Below, in pieces: positions 26,211-34,916 of a stretch of DNA of 50,663 nucleotides. The position numbers and the translations under genes are program-made. The stretch spans positions 1 through 50,663 of the forward strand of contig CALXQE010000061.1 in NCBI GenBank assembly GCA_944390495.1. The letters run 5' to 3'. The notes beneath the pieces were generated by a model. The model had not been told where the DNA came from and did no database searches. It worked only from the letters and a program-made list of their open reading frames with translations. Position 1 is the first letter of the stretch. Each line of letters starts with the position of its first letter. Source of the stretch: an uncultured Clostridia bacterium. GTDB taxonomy: Bacteria; Bacillota; Clostridia; UBA1381.

Positions 26211-27407
26211 TTAAAGATTTTCTGTCAATACTTCACCCAAACGCTTTATACCCTCTTCAATATTTTCAAGAGTTGCTGATGAGTAGTTTAGTCTGAACAT
26301 ATTAGACGGTGCAAAAATATCCGTAGCAAAATTAGAACCCGGTACTATTGCAACCTTCTTTTCTATACATTTATCTACAATAGGAGTAATATCAGTAATT
26401 GTAGGACATTCACACCAAAGGAATATTCCGCCCTCAGGTACTACCCATTTTACCTTACCCGCAGGGAAATATTTTTCCATACTTTCAACCATTTTCGCAC
26501 ATTTTTTACCGTAGAGTTCCCTGTTCTTTTCTATGTACTTATCAATATCATACTTTTTCATGAACTCAACACACATAAGCTGTGTAATCATTGGTGTATG
26601 AACGTCATTTACCTGCTTTAGCATTTCAATTTTTTCAGCAAGTGGTGTAGGTGCAACGATATAACCAAGACGCATACCGGGAGAAAGTATTTTTGAGAAA
26701 GAACCTGCATATATAACTCTTCCCTCTGTATCAAGTGATTTTAAAGTAGGTACGTCTTCACCTGAAAAGCGTAAATCACCGTATGGATTATCTTCTAATA
26801 TAAGTACGTCATATTTTGACGCAAGGAAAAGCATACGTTTTCTCTTTTCAAGTGACATTGTTGTACCGGTAGGATTTTGGAATGTCGGAATTGTATAAAT
26901 CATTTTTATTCCGTCATTATTTTTTAGCGTTTCTTCAAGCTCATCCATATTCATACCGTCTGCTTCAACAGTAACACCCAAAAGCTGTGATTCATAAGTT
27001 CTAAATGCGTTAAGACTTCCTATAAAGCTTGGGCTTTCAACAACTATCTTATCACCCTTATTTAACACTGCCTTAGCAGTAAGGTCAATACCTTGGTTTG
27101 CACCGGTCATTATAAGAATTGTGTCGTTATCACTTACTGAATTAACTTTTTCTGCACGCTGACGGGCACAATCTCTCATTTTAGGATAACCGTCTGTTGT
27201 ACCGTACTGCAATGCAAGAGTAGGATTTGTCATAAGTATTTTTCCTGCGATTTTTGAAAGCTCATCACCGGGGAAAAGTTCAGCTGCAGGATTTCCACCT
27301 GCAAGAGATATAATCTCCGGATCTGCCATACGCTTAAACATTTCACGTATAGCAGAACCTTTCATTGTCTTTACTCTGTCAGCCATAAATTTTGTATATT
27401 CTTTCAT
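26211..27407 (-). CDS. PLP-dependent aminotransferase (class I/II, MocR/2-aminoadipate type)
   Basis: 398 residues with the fold I aminotransferase pattern: SLAGGNPAAELFP, LQYGTTDGYPKMR, ESPSFIGSLNAF, PTFQNPTGTTMS, EDNPYGDLRF and the PLP lysine in SFSKILSPGMRLGYI. This is the DNA-binding-domain-free version of the MocR aminotransferase fold, related to 2-aminoadipate and kynurenine/alpha-ketoglutarate transaminases. The substrate cannot be fixed. It lies within the aminoacyl-tRNA synthetase run. Confidence 0.9.
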   Translation of the reverse strand: MKEYTKFMADRVKTMKGSAIREMFKRMADPEIISLAGGNPAAELFPGDELSKIAGKILMTNPTLALQYGTTDGYPKMRDCARQRAEKVNSVSDNDTILIMTGANQGIDLTAKAVLNKGDKIVVESPSFIGSLNAFRTYESQLLGVTVEADGMNMDELEETLKNNDGIKMIYTIPTFQNPTGTTMSLEKRKRMLFLASKYDVLILEDNPYGDLRFSGEDVPTLKSLDTEGRVIYAGSFSKILSPGMRLGYIVAPTPLAEKIEMLKQVNDVHTPMITQLMCVEFMKKYDIDKYIEKNRELYGKKCAKMVESMEKYFPAGKVKWVVPEGGIFLWCECPTITDITPIVDKCIEKKVAIVPGSNFATDIFAPSNMFRLNYSSATLENIEEGIKRLGEVLTENL

Positions 27408-29099: not shown

Positions 29100-30755
29100 T
29101 TATCCCCTCAACTTTTCTATTGCTTCATCAAATCGTTTCATTACTTCATCTTCACCCAATACTTGAAGTATTTCATAAAGGTCAGGTGTATTTCTTCTTC
29201 CTGTCACCGCTACTCTTATAACGCCTGCCACATCACCGACATGACCTTTATATGCGTCAGGATTTTTCTTATACTCCTTAGGTGCCTTTGCATATCCTAA
29301 ATCAACTGCCATATCACGAACTGTCGGGAACCAGTCCTCTGCCGTGCCGTTTGCATCATATACTTCCTTATACTTTTCAAGTATTTCAATCATATCGTCA
29401 TTTGACAAGTTATCAGCAAAATCAAGATTTCTGTCCCAAAGTTCAGTATAAAAATATGCAACATAGTTTTCAACATCTGACCAAGCAGAAATATCTTTTC
29501 TCGGTTTTGCATTTCCACGTTCTATTGCAAATATAGATTTTGCATACTCCTCATCGTCTGCAAGAAGATTATAAAGCTTTTCGTTGTTTTCCTTTGCCCA
29601 ATCCACAACTAAATCATATACCTCTTCAGCATTAAGTGTACTTATATAATTTTTACTTACATCTGTAAGCTTAACCAAATCAAACAACGCACCTGCTTTG
29701 CTCATCTTTGAAAATGCGAATTTAAAATCTTCAATATCTGCATCCGGGTTTGCAATACGCCAATCTTCATAATTTGAGTTTGCAAGCGTCATTAAGTATT
29801 CCCAAATAGCACCCTTTGGATAACCTACTTCACTGTAATAACTTACTGCGGCCTCCGGATCCTTTCTCTTTGAAAGTTTACGTTTACCGCCGTTTTCCTC
29901 TTTCATTATAGGTGAAATATGTGCATACTTAGGCGGCTTGAATCCACATAAATAGAACAGCTGTAAATGTATCGGTACTGATGAAATCCACTCATCACCT
30001 CTTATAACATGAGTAGTACGCATAAGGTGATCATCTACTGCATGTGCAAAGTGATATGTAGGAGTTCCGTCCTTTTTTAGAAGCACTACGTCTAAAATAT
30101 TTTCAGGCATCTCAATTTCGCCCTTTATAACATCCTTGAATTTTATTCTGTTTTCAGGTTTACCCGGTGACTTTAAACGCACTACATACTCACAGCCGCT
30201 TTCAATTTTTGCTTTCGCTTCCTCAACCGTTATATCACGATACTTTGCATATTTTCCGTATACTCCCGGCAATTCCTTATTTGCTTCCTGCTTTTCTCTT
30301 ATCTCGCTAAGTTCTTCTTCCGTCATAAAGCAAGGATAAGCAAGTCCCTTTTCAACAAGCGACTTAACATAGCACTGATAAATCTCTGTTCTTTTACTCT
30401 GTATATATGGTCCGTATGCCCCCTTTTCCTTTGTTTCTGAAAGCATACCTTCATCTATCTCTATTCCAAAATCACTAAGTCCCTTTACTATAAGACTAAC
30501 GCCATTCTCAACCTCACGTTTTTTATCTGTATCTTCGATTCTAAGATAGAATACGCCGTTAGTTGTTCTTGCGGCTGTTTTTTCCACAAATGCCGCAAAC
30601 AGTCCGCCAAAATGTAAAAATCCTGTGGGACTTGGTGCAAAACGTGTTACAACCGTACCTTCTTCAATCTGACGTTTTGGGTACTTTTCCTCATATTCCT
30701 CCGGCGTTGCCGTTATATGACTGAATAAAAGGTCTGCCATTTGTTTATTGTCCAT
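29100..30755 (-). CDS. gltX: Glutamyl-tRNA synthetase
   Basis: 551 residues, class Ib. VTRFAPSPTGFLHFGGLFAAF holds the HIGH-type motif (HFGG), FYLRIEDTDKKRE follows, and the KMSKS-type loop is KRKLSKRKDPEA. The C-terminal helical anticodon domain is of bacterial type. It charges tRNA-Glu. It is the first gene of the long minus-strand run down to mgtE and has a clear promoter. AAAGGATTTAAGATA precedes the ATG. Confidence 0.96.
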   Translation of the reverse strand: MDNKQMADLLFSHITATPEEYEEKYPKRQIEEGTVVTRFAPSPTGFLHFGGLFAAFVEKTAARTTNGVFYLRIEDTDKKREVENGVSLIVKGLSDFGIEIDEGMLSETKEKGAYGPYIQSKRTEIYQCYVKSLVEKGLAYPCFMTEEELSEIREKQEANKELPGVYGKYAKYRDITVEEAKAKIESGCEYVVRLKSPGKPENRIKFKDVIKGEIEMPENILDVVLLKKDGTPTYHFAHAVDDHLMRTTHVIRGDEWISSVPIHLQLFYLCGFKPPKYAHISPIMKEENGGKRKLSKRKDPEAAVSYYSEVGYPKGAIWEYLMTLANSNYEDWRIANPDADIEDFKFAFSKMSKAGALFDLVKLTDVSKNYISTLNAEEVYDLVVDWAKENNEKLYNLLADDEEYAKSIFAIERGNAKPRKDISAWSDVENYVAYFYTELWDRNLDFADNLSNDDMIEILEKYKEVYDANGTAEDWFPTVRDMAVDLGYAKAPKEYKKNPDAYKGHVGDVAGVIRVAVTGRRNTPDLYEILQVLGEDEVMKRFDEAIEKLRG

Positions 30756-30802
30756 TATCTTAAATCCTTTCCATATATCTCTTATTATACCTATTCTATA
30801 TT

Positions 30803-30831
30803 ATTATACCTAAAAAGTTTTTGAATATCAA
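30803..30831 (-). promoter_or_regulatory. Promoter of gltX and the genes after it
   Basis: Minus strand TTGATA (30826-30831), 17-bp spacer, TATAAT (30803-30808). A second TATAAT further downstream (near 30786) lacks a good -35 box. Confidence 0.8.
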
Positions 30832-31057
30832 TGGTTTTTGGCAATTTTTTTGGTATTAGCCGTAAAATTGTATTTTTTTAATATAAGCGATTACTTCCTG
30901 ATACAATTACCACTCTATTTATCAATATACTTACTACCTATTTATATAATTCTTGTATTATGACATAAATATCAAAATTATACATTAATTGCTCAAAACG
31001 CATAAAAAAACATCGAAATTTTGTACTAACTTTTTATTATATTTTCATCAAAAGATA

Positions 31058-31086
31058 TATACAAACGCATTTTAGTGTGATATAAT
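31058..31086 (+). promoter_or_regulatory. Promoter of the condensation/carrier/ligase cluster
   Basis: TATACA (31058-31063), 17-bp spacer, TATAAT (31081-31086). The predicted leader is about 90 nt long. Confidence 0.6.
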
Positions 31087-31183
31087 AAATATAGACAGAT
31101 TTGCAAAAAGTGTTGGAAATATACTTTGTACTCTGTAAGTAACAATATACACTGCGTAAGGACAAATAAAGGGAGGAAATGAA

Positions 31184-32569
31184 ATGGGTATTAAATATTA
31201 TCCCCTTGCACCGGCACAGTCAACACAGCATCAGCTTGCAACGGAATTCGGTACATCGCAGGTAATAAATATTTGTATTTGTTCTACACTAAAAATGGAG
31301 CTTGACTTCGATTTATTAAGAAAATGTATTAAAGACGAATTTAATAGGTACGAATGTCTTAGAATACGTTTATCAAAGCCTGACAAAAACGGCAATGTCA
31401 AGCAGTACATAGTCGCACGTGACACAAGCGAAATAGACTTTGTGGATTTAAGCGACAAAACAGAAAAGGAAATTGATGATACTCTTAACGAATGGTCATT
31501 TGTTCCGTTCAGCGAACCAAACAAGCCAATGGTGGAATTTAAAATGATAAAGCTTCCTGATGGTTATCAGGGAATTTATCTGCGTATTGACCATAGACTT
31601 GCTGATTCAAGTGCAGTGATAGTTATGGTTAATGACATAATGAGTCTTTACTGCCATTATGCTTACGGTTCAGAATTTCCGGATCCCCTTCCATCATACG
31701 TTGAGGCACTTGAAAAGGATCTTGAAAAGGAAACAAAAACTAAAAAGATTGAACGTGACGGTGCTTTTTGGGACGAAGTGTTATCACTTGGGGAACCTTT
31801 GTATTCAGACGTTACAGGCACTTGGAAACTTGAAGAAGAACGCAAAAAATACAATAATCCAAATCAAAGATATGTACATAGAGAAATTAAGGATACAAGA
31901 GTTGGTTTTGCAGTATTCGACCTTGAACCGGAACCATCTTACAAGCTTTTAGAATATTGCCTTAACAACAATGTTTCAATGACAAATCTTCTTTTGATGG
32001 GACTTCGTACATACCTTTCAAAAGCAAATGACGGTCAAACTGATATTAGTATAAGAAACTTTGTATCACGTCGTTCTACAAGACTTGAAAGGCTCAGCGG
32101 CGGAAGCAGAACCGAGTGGTATCCATGCCGTACAATTATAGAACCTGATACAGAATTTCTTGACGGAATTTACATCATTCAAGATTTACAAAACAAAGTA
32201 TATCGTCATTCTAACTATGACCAGGCACGTCTTGCACAAAAATTCAAGGAAAAATTTAATCAGCCTGACCATACGACATACGAGGGTATGCTTCTTACAT
32301 ATCAGCCACTACCGGTAAGATTCCAAAACCCAAATCTTTCAGGTGTACCATATAAATCAAAGTGGCTAAGTAATGGTACAGCAGTGCAGAAGTTATATTT
32401 AACAGTTATGCATACGCCAAACGGCGGGCTTCAATTTTTCTTTAAGTACCAGGAAGCTGAACTTTCATACACAGACGTACAACGTGTTTACTATTATTTA
32501 ATGAGAATTATTTTTGCCGGTGTAGAACATCCTGATTGGACAGTAGGCGAAATTATAGACAGAGTTTAA
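31184..32569 (+). CDS. Stand-alone condensation-like acyltransferase
   Basis: 461 residues resembling the condensation/acyltransferase superfamily of nonribosomal peptide synthetases and PapA-type enzymes. The N-terminal half begins YYPLAPAQSTQHQLATEF and contains IDHRLADSS at 135-143, aligning with HHxxxD: the catalytic His (137) and Asp (141) remain while the first His is Asp136. I do not see the usual C-terminal DFGWG segment. No signal peptide or membrane helix is present. It probably moves an acyl group from the carrier protein encoded next to an unknown amine or alcohol. GGGAGG is 7 nt before the ATG. First gene of a three-gene operon. Confidence 0.75.
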   Translation: MGIKYYPLAPAQSTQHQLATEFGTSQVINICICSTLKMELDFDLLRKCIKDEFNRYECLRIRLSKPDKNGNVKQYIVARDTSEIDFVDLSDKTEKEIDDTLNEWSFVPFSEPNKPMVEFKMIKLPDGYQGIYLRIDHRLADSSAVIVMVNDIMSLYCHYAYGSEFPDPLPSYVEALEKDLEKETKTKKIERDGAFWDEVLSLGEPLYSDVTGTWKLEEERKKYNNPNQRYVHREIKDTRVGFAVFDLEPEPSYKLLEYCLNNNVSMTNLLLMGLRTYLSKANDGQTDISIRNFVSRRSTRLERLSGGSRTEWYPCRTIIEPDTEFLDGIYIIQDLQNKVYRHSNYDQARLAQKFKEKFNQPDHTTYEGMLLTYQPLPVRFQNPNLSGVPYKSKWLSNGTAVQKLYLTVMHTPNGGLQFFFKYQEAELSYTDVQRVYYYLMRIIFAGVEHPDWTVGEIIDRV

Positions 32570-32588
32570 TTTTAAGGAGGATTTTAAA

Positions 32589-32816
32589 ATGTTTGAAGAA
32601 TTTAGAGAAATGCTTACAGAGTATGTTGACGTACCGGCTGAAGAAATTAAGGAGGATTCAAGATTTATTGAAGATCTTGGTCTTAATTCATTTGAATTTA
32701 TGACACTTCTTGGAAATCTCGAGGACGAATACGACGTAGAAGTAGATGAAAATGAAATTTTAGGCATTAAAACTGTCGGTGAAGCTGTCGCTTATATCGA
32801 AAAACTTTCAAAATAG
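32589..32816 (+). CDS. Discrete acyl/peptidyl carrier protein
   Basis: A 75-residue acidic four-helix protein. The 4'-phosphopantetheine serine is Ser34 in DLGLNSFEFM, and the end EILGIKTVGEAVAYIEKL matches helix 3-4 of carrier proteins. It is not the housekeeping fatty-acid AcpP by context, since it sits between the condensation-like protein and the ligase (19-bp and 12-bp gaps). AAGGAGG stands 7 nt before the ATG. It is expected to carry the acyl group made by the ligase. Confidence 0.92.
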   Translation: MFEEFREMLTEYVDVPAEEIKEDSRFIEDLGLNSFEFMTLLGNLEDEYDVEVDENEILGIKTVGEAVAYIEKLSK

Positions 32817-32828
32817 GGGGATAAAAAA

Positions 32829-34340
32829 ATGGCACTTAATACAATAAGAGATATAATTGTACAAAGTAACGAAAAATTTTCCGATATGGTAGCTTTTAAA
32901 TATTACGAAAAAAAGGATATTTTAGAAAAGACTTATAGTGATGTAAAAAAAGACAGCGAAACTGTCAGCCGTATACTTAATAAGTTTGATCTTTTAGGAA
33001 AACATATAGCTATCATAGGTACAAGCAGCTACCAGTGGATTATTACATATTTCGGTATAGTAAACAGCGGTTCTGTTGCAATACCACTTGACGCTGCACT
33101 TCCTGCAAATGCACTTTACGAACTTTTAAATCGTGCAGACACATCTGCATTATTTTATGATAAATCACAAAAAGCAATAGCAGAAGGAATTAAAGAAAAC
33201 TGTCCCGGTATTTCACATCTTATTTGTCTTCAGGACGATGTTACAATTGACGGTGAATATTCACTTCCTGCTCTTATGGAAGAAAATCAGGGTGAATTTG
33301 AAGCTAATATAGATCCTGATAAAGTATGTACAATTATGTTTACTTCAGGTACAACAGGTAAAAGCAAAGGTGTTATGCTTACAAACAGAAACCTTGCCTC
33401 AAATGTTGAAAACTGTGTTGTTCAGATTGAACCGGGTACCGTTTCAATGACTGTACTCCCTATTCACCACGCATACTGCCTTACATCTGACATTTTAAAA
33501 AGTATGTCAATAGGTTCATGTATATGTATCAACGATTCAATGCTGCATTTTACTAAGAATTTGCAGAAATTTAAACCTACTGTTATATTACTTGTACCCC
33601 TTGTTATAGAAACTATTTATCAGCAGCTTCGCGAAACAAAACCGGGTATACCAAAAGAAATGGTTGCAAAAGCAGCTTTCGGCGGTAACTTAAAGATTAT
33701 ATTCAGCGGCGGTGCATATCTAAATCCGGATCTTATAGGATTCTTTGAAGAATTTGGTATTCAAATACTTCAAGGATACGGTATGACAGAATGTTCACCT
33801 GTTATCAGTAATAACAATCAAATCGACTCAAAAGTTGGTTCTGTCGGCAAGCCATTAGCTAACTGTGAAGTAAAAATTATAGATGAGGAAATATGCGTAA
33901 AGGGTTCAAGCGTTATGCAGGGTTACTACAAAATGCCAGATGAAACAGCCCAAGCACTTGACAGTAACGGTTATCTTCATACAGGTGACCTTGGTTATCT
34001 TGACGAGGACGGTTTCCTATACATAACAGGACGTAAAAAGAATCTTATTATTCTATCAAACGGAGAAAACATATCACCTGAAGAACTTGAAAATATTTTA
34101 GGTAAAAACGATCTTATAAAAGAAGTTCTTGTAAGAGAAAACGGACAAAATATCGAAGCTGAAATATTCCCTGATTTTGATTATGCAAAGCTACACGGTA
34201 TTGATGATATTAACAAATCACTTCAGGATATTATTGATAATTTCAATAAAGATATGCCTCTTTATAAAAGAATCACATCACTTAAAACAAGAGATGTAGA
34301 ATTTGAAAAGAATACAACAAAGAAAATCAAAAGATTTTAA
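32829..34340 (+). CDS. Acyl-AMP ligase / acyl-CoA synthetase-like adenylating enzyme
   Basis: 503 residues of the ANL superfamily: P-loop TSGTTGKSKG (172-181), LPIHHAYCLTSD (210-221), QGYGMTE (315-321), TGD (385-387), GRKKNLIILSNGENISPEELE (401-421) and a C-terminal lysine in TTKKIKR (about Lys499, with Lys in place of the usual Gly before it). The HH segment resembles carboxylic/fatty-acid-activating enzymes rather than amino-acid A domains, so a fatty or other carboxylic acid substrate is inferred. It probably loads the neighbouring carrier protein. GGGGG lies before the ATG, and a terminator closes the operon. Confidence 0.88.
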   Translation: MALNTIRDIIVQSNEKFSDMVAFKYYEKKDILEKTYSDVKKDSETVSRILNKFDLLGKHIAIIGTSSYQWIITYFGIVNSGSVAIPLDAALPANALYELLNRADTSALFYDKSQKAIAEGIKENCPGISHLICLQDDVTIDGEYSLPALMEENQGEFEANIDPDKVCTIMFTSGTTGKSKGVMLTNRNLASNVENCVVQIEPGTVSMTVLPIHHAYCLTSDILKSMSIGSCICINDSMLHFTKNLQKFKPTVILLVPLVIETIYQQLRETKPGIPKEMVAKAAFGGNLKIIFSGGAYLNPDLIGFFEEFGIQILQGYGMTECSPVISNNNQIDSKVGSVGKPLANCEVKIIDEEICVKGSSVMQGYYKMPDETAQALDSNGYLHTGDLGYLDEDGFLYITGRKKNLIILSNGENISPEELENILGKNDLIKEVLVRENGQNIEAEIFPDFDYAKLHGIDDINKSLQDIIDNFNKDMPLYKRITSLKTRDVEFEKNTTKKIKRF

Positions 34341-34350
34341 TTTTCTTTAA

Positions 34351-34380
34351 AATAGGTAAGCTAAGCTTACCTATTTTTTA
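34351..34380 (+). terminator. Terminator of the condensation/carrier/ligase operon
   Basis: AAATAGGTAAGC (34351-34362) pairs with GCTTACCTATTT (34366-34377), followed by T residues. Confidence 0.88.
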
Positions 34381-34427
34381 ATGCTAAAAATATTTACTTA
34401 TAATATACAATAAAAGAAGCTCTTTTC

Positions 34428-34456
34428 TTGATTTTTAAATAATGATATGATATACT
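34428..34456 (+). promoter_or_regulatory. Promoter of the nusB-xseAB-ispA operon
   Basis: TTGATT (34428-34433), 17-bp spacer, TATACT (34451-34456), with the nusB start 46 bp further on. Confidence 0.7.
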
Positions 34457-34502
34457 CATAGTATGGAAAATTATGCGTACAATCGGAAAGGAACTGTCTA
34501 AA

Positions 34503-34916
34503 ATGAAAAAACAAACAAGAAGTCAAGCACGTGATGCGGCATTTACACAGGTTTTTCAGATGAGTTTACATGAGGACGACATGGATGTTATTTTAGATGA
34601 GCTTTTACAGGCACGTCCTGAATGTGAAGCAAATCTTGGATATATCACTGAAATTATTGACGGAGTCAAAACACACAAAGAAGAACTTGAACAGCTCATT
34701 TCTAATCACCTAAAACCGGGTTGGACAATCTCAAGAATTTCAAAGGTTTCACTTAGTATAATGAAACTTGCTATATTTGAAATGAAGTACCTTGACGATG
34801 TTCCGCCAAAGGTTGCAATAAACGAGGCTGTTGAACTTGCCAAGCGTTATGGCGACGATGGTGACCCAACTTTCGTAAACGGGCTTTTAGGAAGTGTATT
34901 TAAGTCATTATCATGA
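34503..34916 (+). CDS. nusB: Transcription antitermination factor NusB
   Basis: 137 residues from the ATG at 34503 (MKKQTRSQARDAAFTQVFQM), 10 nt after AAAGGA; an upstream ATG at 34473 lacks a ribosome binding site. The all-helical NusB fold is marked by the Arg-rich start, the central acidic helix, VPPKVAINEAVELAKRYGDD and FVNGLLGSVF. With S10 it binds boxA for rRNA antitermination. The stop overlaps the next start as ATGA, so the two are translationally coupled. Confidence 0.94.
   Translation: MKKQTRSQARDAAFTQVFQMSLHEDDMDVILDELLQARPECEANLGYITEIIDGVKTHKEELEQLISNHLKPGWTISRISKVSLSIMKLAIFEMKYLDDVPPKVAINEAVELAKRYGDDGDPTFVNGLLGSVFKSLS

Follow-up and report, generated by a model that had tools for sequence, protein, structure and literature searches.

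We identified a compact three-gene operon in a 50,663-nucleotide stretch of DNA from an uncultured Clostridia bacterium (contig CALXQE010000061.1 of assembly GCA_944390495.1; hereafter the window). It encodes a free-standing condensation protein (C), an acyl carrier protein (T), and an acyl-AMP ligase (A); C is a homologue of OaaC, from a fatty-acid-amide (FAA) pathway of Coprococcus eutactus, and we predict with high confidence, on sequence grounds, that the set couples a fatty acid with a free small amine. Its parts and their order are those of a known FAA set, and the bacterium is therefore predicted to make lipid amides resembling signal molecules of animals; FAAs from CTA-type operons are reported to act on animal G-protein-coupled receptors (PMC13142362, PMC13060934). 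An earlier sequence-only reading of this DNA had proposed that an acid is activated, loaded on the carrier, and transferred by the free condensation protein, which is the mechanism reported for the homologous OaaA, OaaACP, and OaaC (PMC13142362) and is probably right. Among the acceptors it offered, an amine is supported by homology, whereas an alcohol or lipid is without support. Its statement that no product was described for this exact set has been overtaken: the set of Coprococcus eutactus makes oleoyl aminovaleric acid (PMC13142362), and the CTA operon has been described (PMC13060934).

The three open reading frames are complete, share a strand, are separated by 19 and 12 bases, and encode proteins with one Pfam domain each (Table 1). 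The earlier reading had placed all three, along with Ser34 of the carrier, correctly, and each protein scores above its Pfam cut-off. Its terminator was likewise borne out, as a hairpin of 13 pairs whose 3' arm runs into six T's (−15 kcal/mol, z −4.36, with 0 of 200 shuffles equally stable); the same hairpin is absent from the list of a separate pattern scan. As for the operon's own promoter, a suitable site does exist, but as a consensus match, and the call is weak because the scan count (25 promoter-like sites vs 17.7 +/- 4.1 in shuffles) rises only weakly above expectation. The operon's neighbours are two diverging aminoacyl-tRNA-synthetase-like genes, named gltX and glnS by eye, and nusB, identified with Pfam. 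No thioesterase, reductase, ketosynthase, or transporter was recognized by eye among the open reading frames listed between positions 27000 and 39000, as the earlier reading had also held.

Table 1. Features of the operon and its putative expression signals (positions in the window)
Feature	Position	Strand	Basis
C, free-standing FAA-type condensation protein, 461 aa	31184-32569	+	PF00668, 12KH/OaaC match, motif, tree
T, acyl carrier protein, 75 aa, predicted phosphopantetheine site Ser34 (LGLNSFEF)	32589-32816	+	PF00550
A, acyl-AMP ligase, fatty-acid type by score, 503 aa	32829-34340	+	PF00501, core motifs located
Promoter-like site TATACA-17-TATAAT, TG before second hexamer	31058-31086	+	Consensus scan only, 10/12
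Intrinsic terminator-like hairpin and T run	34349-34379	+	Fold energy vs shuffles

The identity of C carries most of the argument. What had been called a condensation-like protein scores as a condensation domain and not as an unrelated fold (PF00668, 122.5 bits against a cut-off of 30.6), and its best match among PDB chains—12KH_A, the OaaC of Coprococcus eutactus (PMC13142362)—covers residues 3-459 at an E-value of 1.5e-170, compared with 2.3e-8 for the second-best chain, a gap of some 160 orders of magnitude. In a whole-length alignment C is 53.8% identical to OaaC, and it aligns without gaps to OaaC residues 214-224, the site of an extra helix described for that one protein and not as a family-wide mark (PMC13142362). 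At the HHxxxD position, C does contain the sequence IDHRLADSS singled out earlier, but the motif is of the DHxxxDS type and not HHxxxDG; residues 136-142 (DHRLADS) fit the pattern (D/H)HxxxDS that PMC13142362 reports for condensation domains of the FAA type. DHxxxDS, which is a signature of the FAA condensation group, occurs in every one of the 119 listed relatives once the query's own entry is set aside (best 120 of 2424 matches). Seven of these best 120 of 2424 relatives (P0047, P0060, P0064, P0077, P0082, P0097, and P0119) are named “chromosome condensation protein,” a label apparently transferred in error from the word “condensation.” The comparison with PapA and WS/DGAT models that had been suggested returned no match for C, with Pfam at E-values up to 0.1 reporting PF00668 and one sub-cut-off lectin match only. 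Among NCBIfam models, C weakly matches those for NRPSs, and C, T, and A all fall below the cut-off of every model listed (for the ligase, 25 of 106).

The partner proteins were matched to OaaACP and OaaA by family and position only, the comparison by sequence being made for C. T scores 49.2 bits against PF00550 (cut-off 20.8), matches NCBIfam acyl carrier models below their cut-offs, and is 34% identical to the genome's other carrier. A reaches 231.2 bits against PF00501 (cut-off 29.9); its best NCBIfam match is the long-chain-fatty-acid--CoA ligase model PRK06187 (257 bits, below the cut-off of 476), and the amino-acid adenylation model gives 137.7 bits (below its cut-off of 317.4).

To place C within its family, we computed a quick tree from 79 of 254 aligned rows—the 34 closest, a sample of the rest, and 10 locus rows, with no canonical NRPS C domains—in which, by the program's own warning, long branches meet among distant rows and detail there is not to be trusted. 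A 59-row clade (SH-aLRT 100) holds both window C and OaaC. Window C lies in a clade of 14 rows (support 100) whose members are 74-80.5% identical to it; this clade joins two more rows (93) and then, at a support of 80 only, a 31-row group within which OaaC occupies an 8-row clade (98) that leaves window C outside. Window C is a member of the OaaC-containing group, beside the OaaC clade rather than inside it, and therefore neither oleoyl aminovaleric acid nor OaaC's amine can be assumed for the window. The position outside the OaaC clade, the fork with support 80, and the level of identity to OaaC all count against the FAA reading. Having its own well-supported clade beside OaaC's would also suit a split system within this condensation family that has lost amide formation and serves another product class, such as an ester or an acylated membrane component, but the motif, the length, the extra-helix segment, and the gene order all fit the amide-making type, and we regard such a change of product as improbable. 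For the window's clade, record names go no further than Clostridia, Clostridiales, or Candidatus Roslinia, and one isolate label reads Chicken; a limited literature search found nothing on the operon together with chicken.

We then turn to gene order, which supports the amide-forming reading. Relatives of C at E-values up to 1e-20 are encoded in 29 of 95 genomes of the order, counting that of the window, and the three-gene order that the sequence-only reading proposed to search for is conserved among them: C-T-A on the same strand was found in 27 of 29 genomes, or 26 of 28 without the window's own. All six genomes whose C is of the window type (77-100% identical) have it, as do 21 of the 23 whose C is more distant (30-46% identical, several with motifs other than DHxxxDS); in the two genomes without a C-T-A readout (L012 and L030), the sequence ends at C. 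In one of the 27 (G021, loci L034 / L060), C matches in its last 100 residues only, with T and A following, and the C gene appears truncated at its 5' end. Larger regions were examined for 20 of the 28 other genomes, the family comparison also taking in L003 and L005, the latter apparently the same contig as L043. Neighbour families other than C, T, and A are common to two to five regions at most, and since neighbours differ between lineages, C, T, and A are the unit; the 20 wider regions contain no larger shared cluster to which the operon might belong. Directly upstream of C, three loci have a MarR-type regulator gene (L056:7299-7772, L058:7191-7658, and L057:3342-3884; Pfam checked in L056 and L058), all three C genes being of a distant type with the motif YHLxMDA. 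Two others, from genera g8 and g7, have an alpha/beta hydrolase gene there (L046:7306-8295 and L047:560-1501), which could affect the supply of fatty acid or have the amide as its target.

The window's genome, with completeness given as 97%, has one match to PF00668, two carrier genes, and four AMP-binding matches. C's membership of the Pfam condensation family and its weak NRPS matches might evoke a larger nonribosomal peptide cluster of which these genes are a remnant, its other modules lying elsewhere in the genome, but a single condensation domain and two carrier genes at that completeness, together with a three-gene unit that has different neighbours in relatives, largely refute this very improbable reading. 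DltA and DltC also combine a ligase with a free carrier, but acyl transfer to the cell envelope or to alcohols in the manner of Dlt or of PapA/wax-ester enzymes is scarcely credible, given that no membrane acyltransferase adjoins the operon (by eye, at the locus), that A scores best as a fatty-acid type, and that the Pfam scan of C returned nothing of the kind.

Under the preferred reading of fatty acid-amine joining, A would activate a free fatty acid with ATP, as acyl-AMP, and load it on T. A phosphopantetheinyl transferase would arm Ser34 of T, a candidate being the genome's one ACPS-family transferase gene, a 196-residue open reading frame that we judged by eye, from length and motifs, to be Sfp-like. 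C would take the acyl group off the carrier, its thioester being attacked by a primary amine that diffuses freely, such that, as we propose, the amide would be released with no thioesterase needed. Like its homologue OaaC, C is likely a resting homodimer opened by the loaded carrier. As a first guess, tentative and somewhat more apt to fail than to hold, the amine could be an omega-amino acid such as 5-aminovalerate or GABA. Regarding amine supply, the genome has two matches above cut-off to the Orn/Lys/Arg decarboxylase family PF01276, which would permit the cell to make its own diamines or agmatine. An outside source is more likely for aromatic amines or GABA, because no match to the group II decarboxylase family PF00282 exceeds the cut-off in the genome; there are two sub-cut-off matches, one coinciding with a PF01276 match. 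The PF07355 profile matched nothing in the genome and nothing in the controls either, so its silence carries no information.

For the window's genome, recent acquisition of the operon by transfer is possible but unproved. For transfer, 12 of 15 other genomes of genus g1 have a match, all 12 of distant types (30-46% identical in the matched stretch); window C is instead 77-80% identical to its counterparts in five genomes from genera g9 and g10, and g9 is itself mixed, its eight matches comprising four of the window type and four distant; none of the 11 g1 genomes where both could be read has the operon on the same contig as its best match to gltX or nusB; and gltX is only 68-73% identical to g9/g10. 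Against transfer, glnS is 80-82% identical to g9/g10, above the identity of C, and G+C content is ordinary (33.8-37.4% vs 35.9% for the window). It is because gltX and glnS give opposite answers that transfer is unproved. In the window, gltX and nusB flank the operon (29100-34916). Of the 14 g1 relatives that have both, 13 carry the best matches to these genes on separate contigs and the other has them about 41 kb apart, and the operon therefore appears to sit at a rearrangement boundary, as far as draft genomes can indicate; a clean empty site was not demonstrable among these 14 drafts. One match to C, at 22% identity, was found among 72,556 plasmid records (E-values up to 1e-20), and that collection therefore contains no close plasmid copy.

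This kind of system is already described; what is new is a distinct condensation clade in uncultured Clostridia, a modest addition, as is the occurrence of several distant types of C within g1 and within g9. The window alone provides a confident annotation and no new principle, while several distant condensation types in one genus and one family form a natural series for finding the residues that choose the amine. A more speculative joint reading, which we think unlikely to hold as a whole, is that the 14-row clade represents a separate acceptor type of uncultured gut Clostridia, making an N-acyl amide undescribed from bacteria with an amine taken up or made by the two Orn/Lys/Arg-type decarboxylases, and that the three-gene cassette is exchanged for distant FAA types between close relatives. 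If cassettes were exchanged in this way, each species would change its lipid signal by swapping them.

The CTA operon was reportedly first described by Chang et al. in 2021. The window's operon shares with that of Blautia wexlerae and other Lachnospiraceae the order C-T-A, with T between C and A as in the isolate homologues (PMC13060934). The isolate survey reports the operon in Lachnospiraceae only, at a cut-off of 70% identity for C and A homologues (PMC13060934), compared with which window C is 53.8% identical to OaaC, the sole catalogue reference compared; given that cut-off, the survey result and the names in the window's clade (Candidatus Roslinia, uncultured Clostridia, and Clostridiales, which do not exclude Lachnospiraceae) do not conflict. 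FAA domains have been placed nearest to the starter condensation domains of lipopeptide NRPSs (PMC13142362), which resemble window C in their fatty-acyl donor but lie inside multidomain proteins and use carrier-bound acceptors, a separation made here by description; a modular NRPS is further set apart by the single PF00668 match in the genome and by the single-domain C, T, and A. The closest counterpart is the Oaa pathway, in which OaaA activates the fatty acid, OaaACP carries it, and OaaC joins it to aminovaleric acid, with C-dependent amide formation by the three purified proteins and, in vitro, acceptance of other fatty acids and of GABA as the amine (PMC13142362, a preprint). Window C lies in a separate clade, unlike OaaC, but the two systems are alike in comprising three free-standing proteins and in having condensation proteins that share the DHxxxDS motif, an aligned extra-helix segment, and more than half of their residues.
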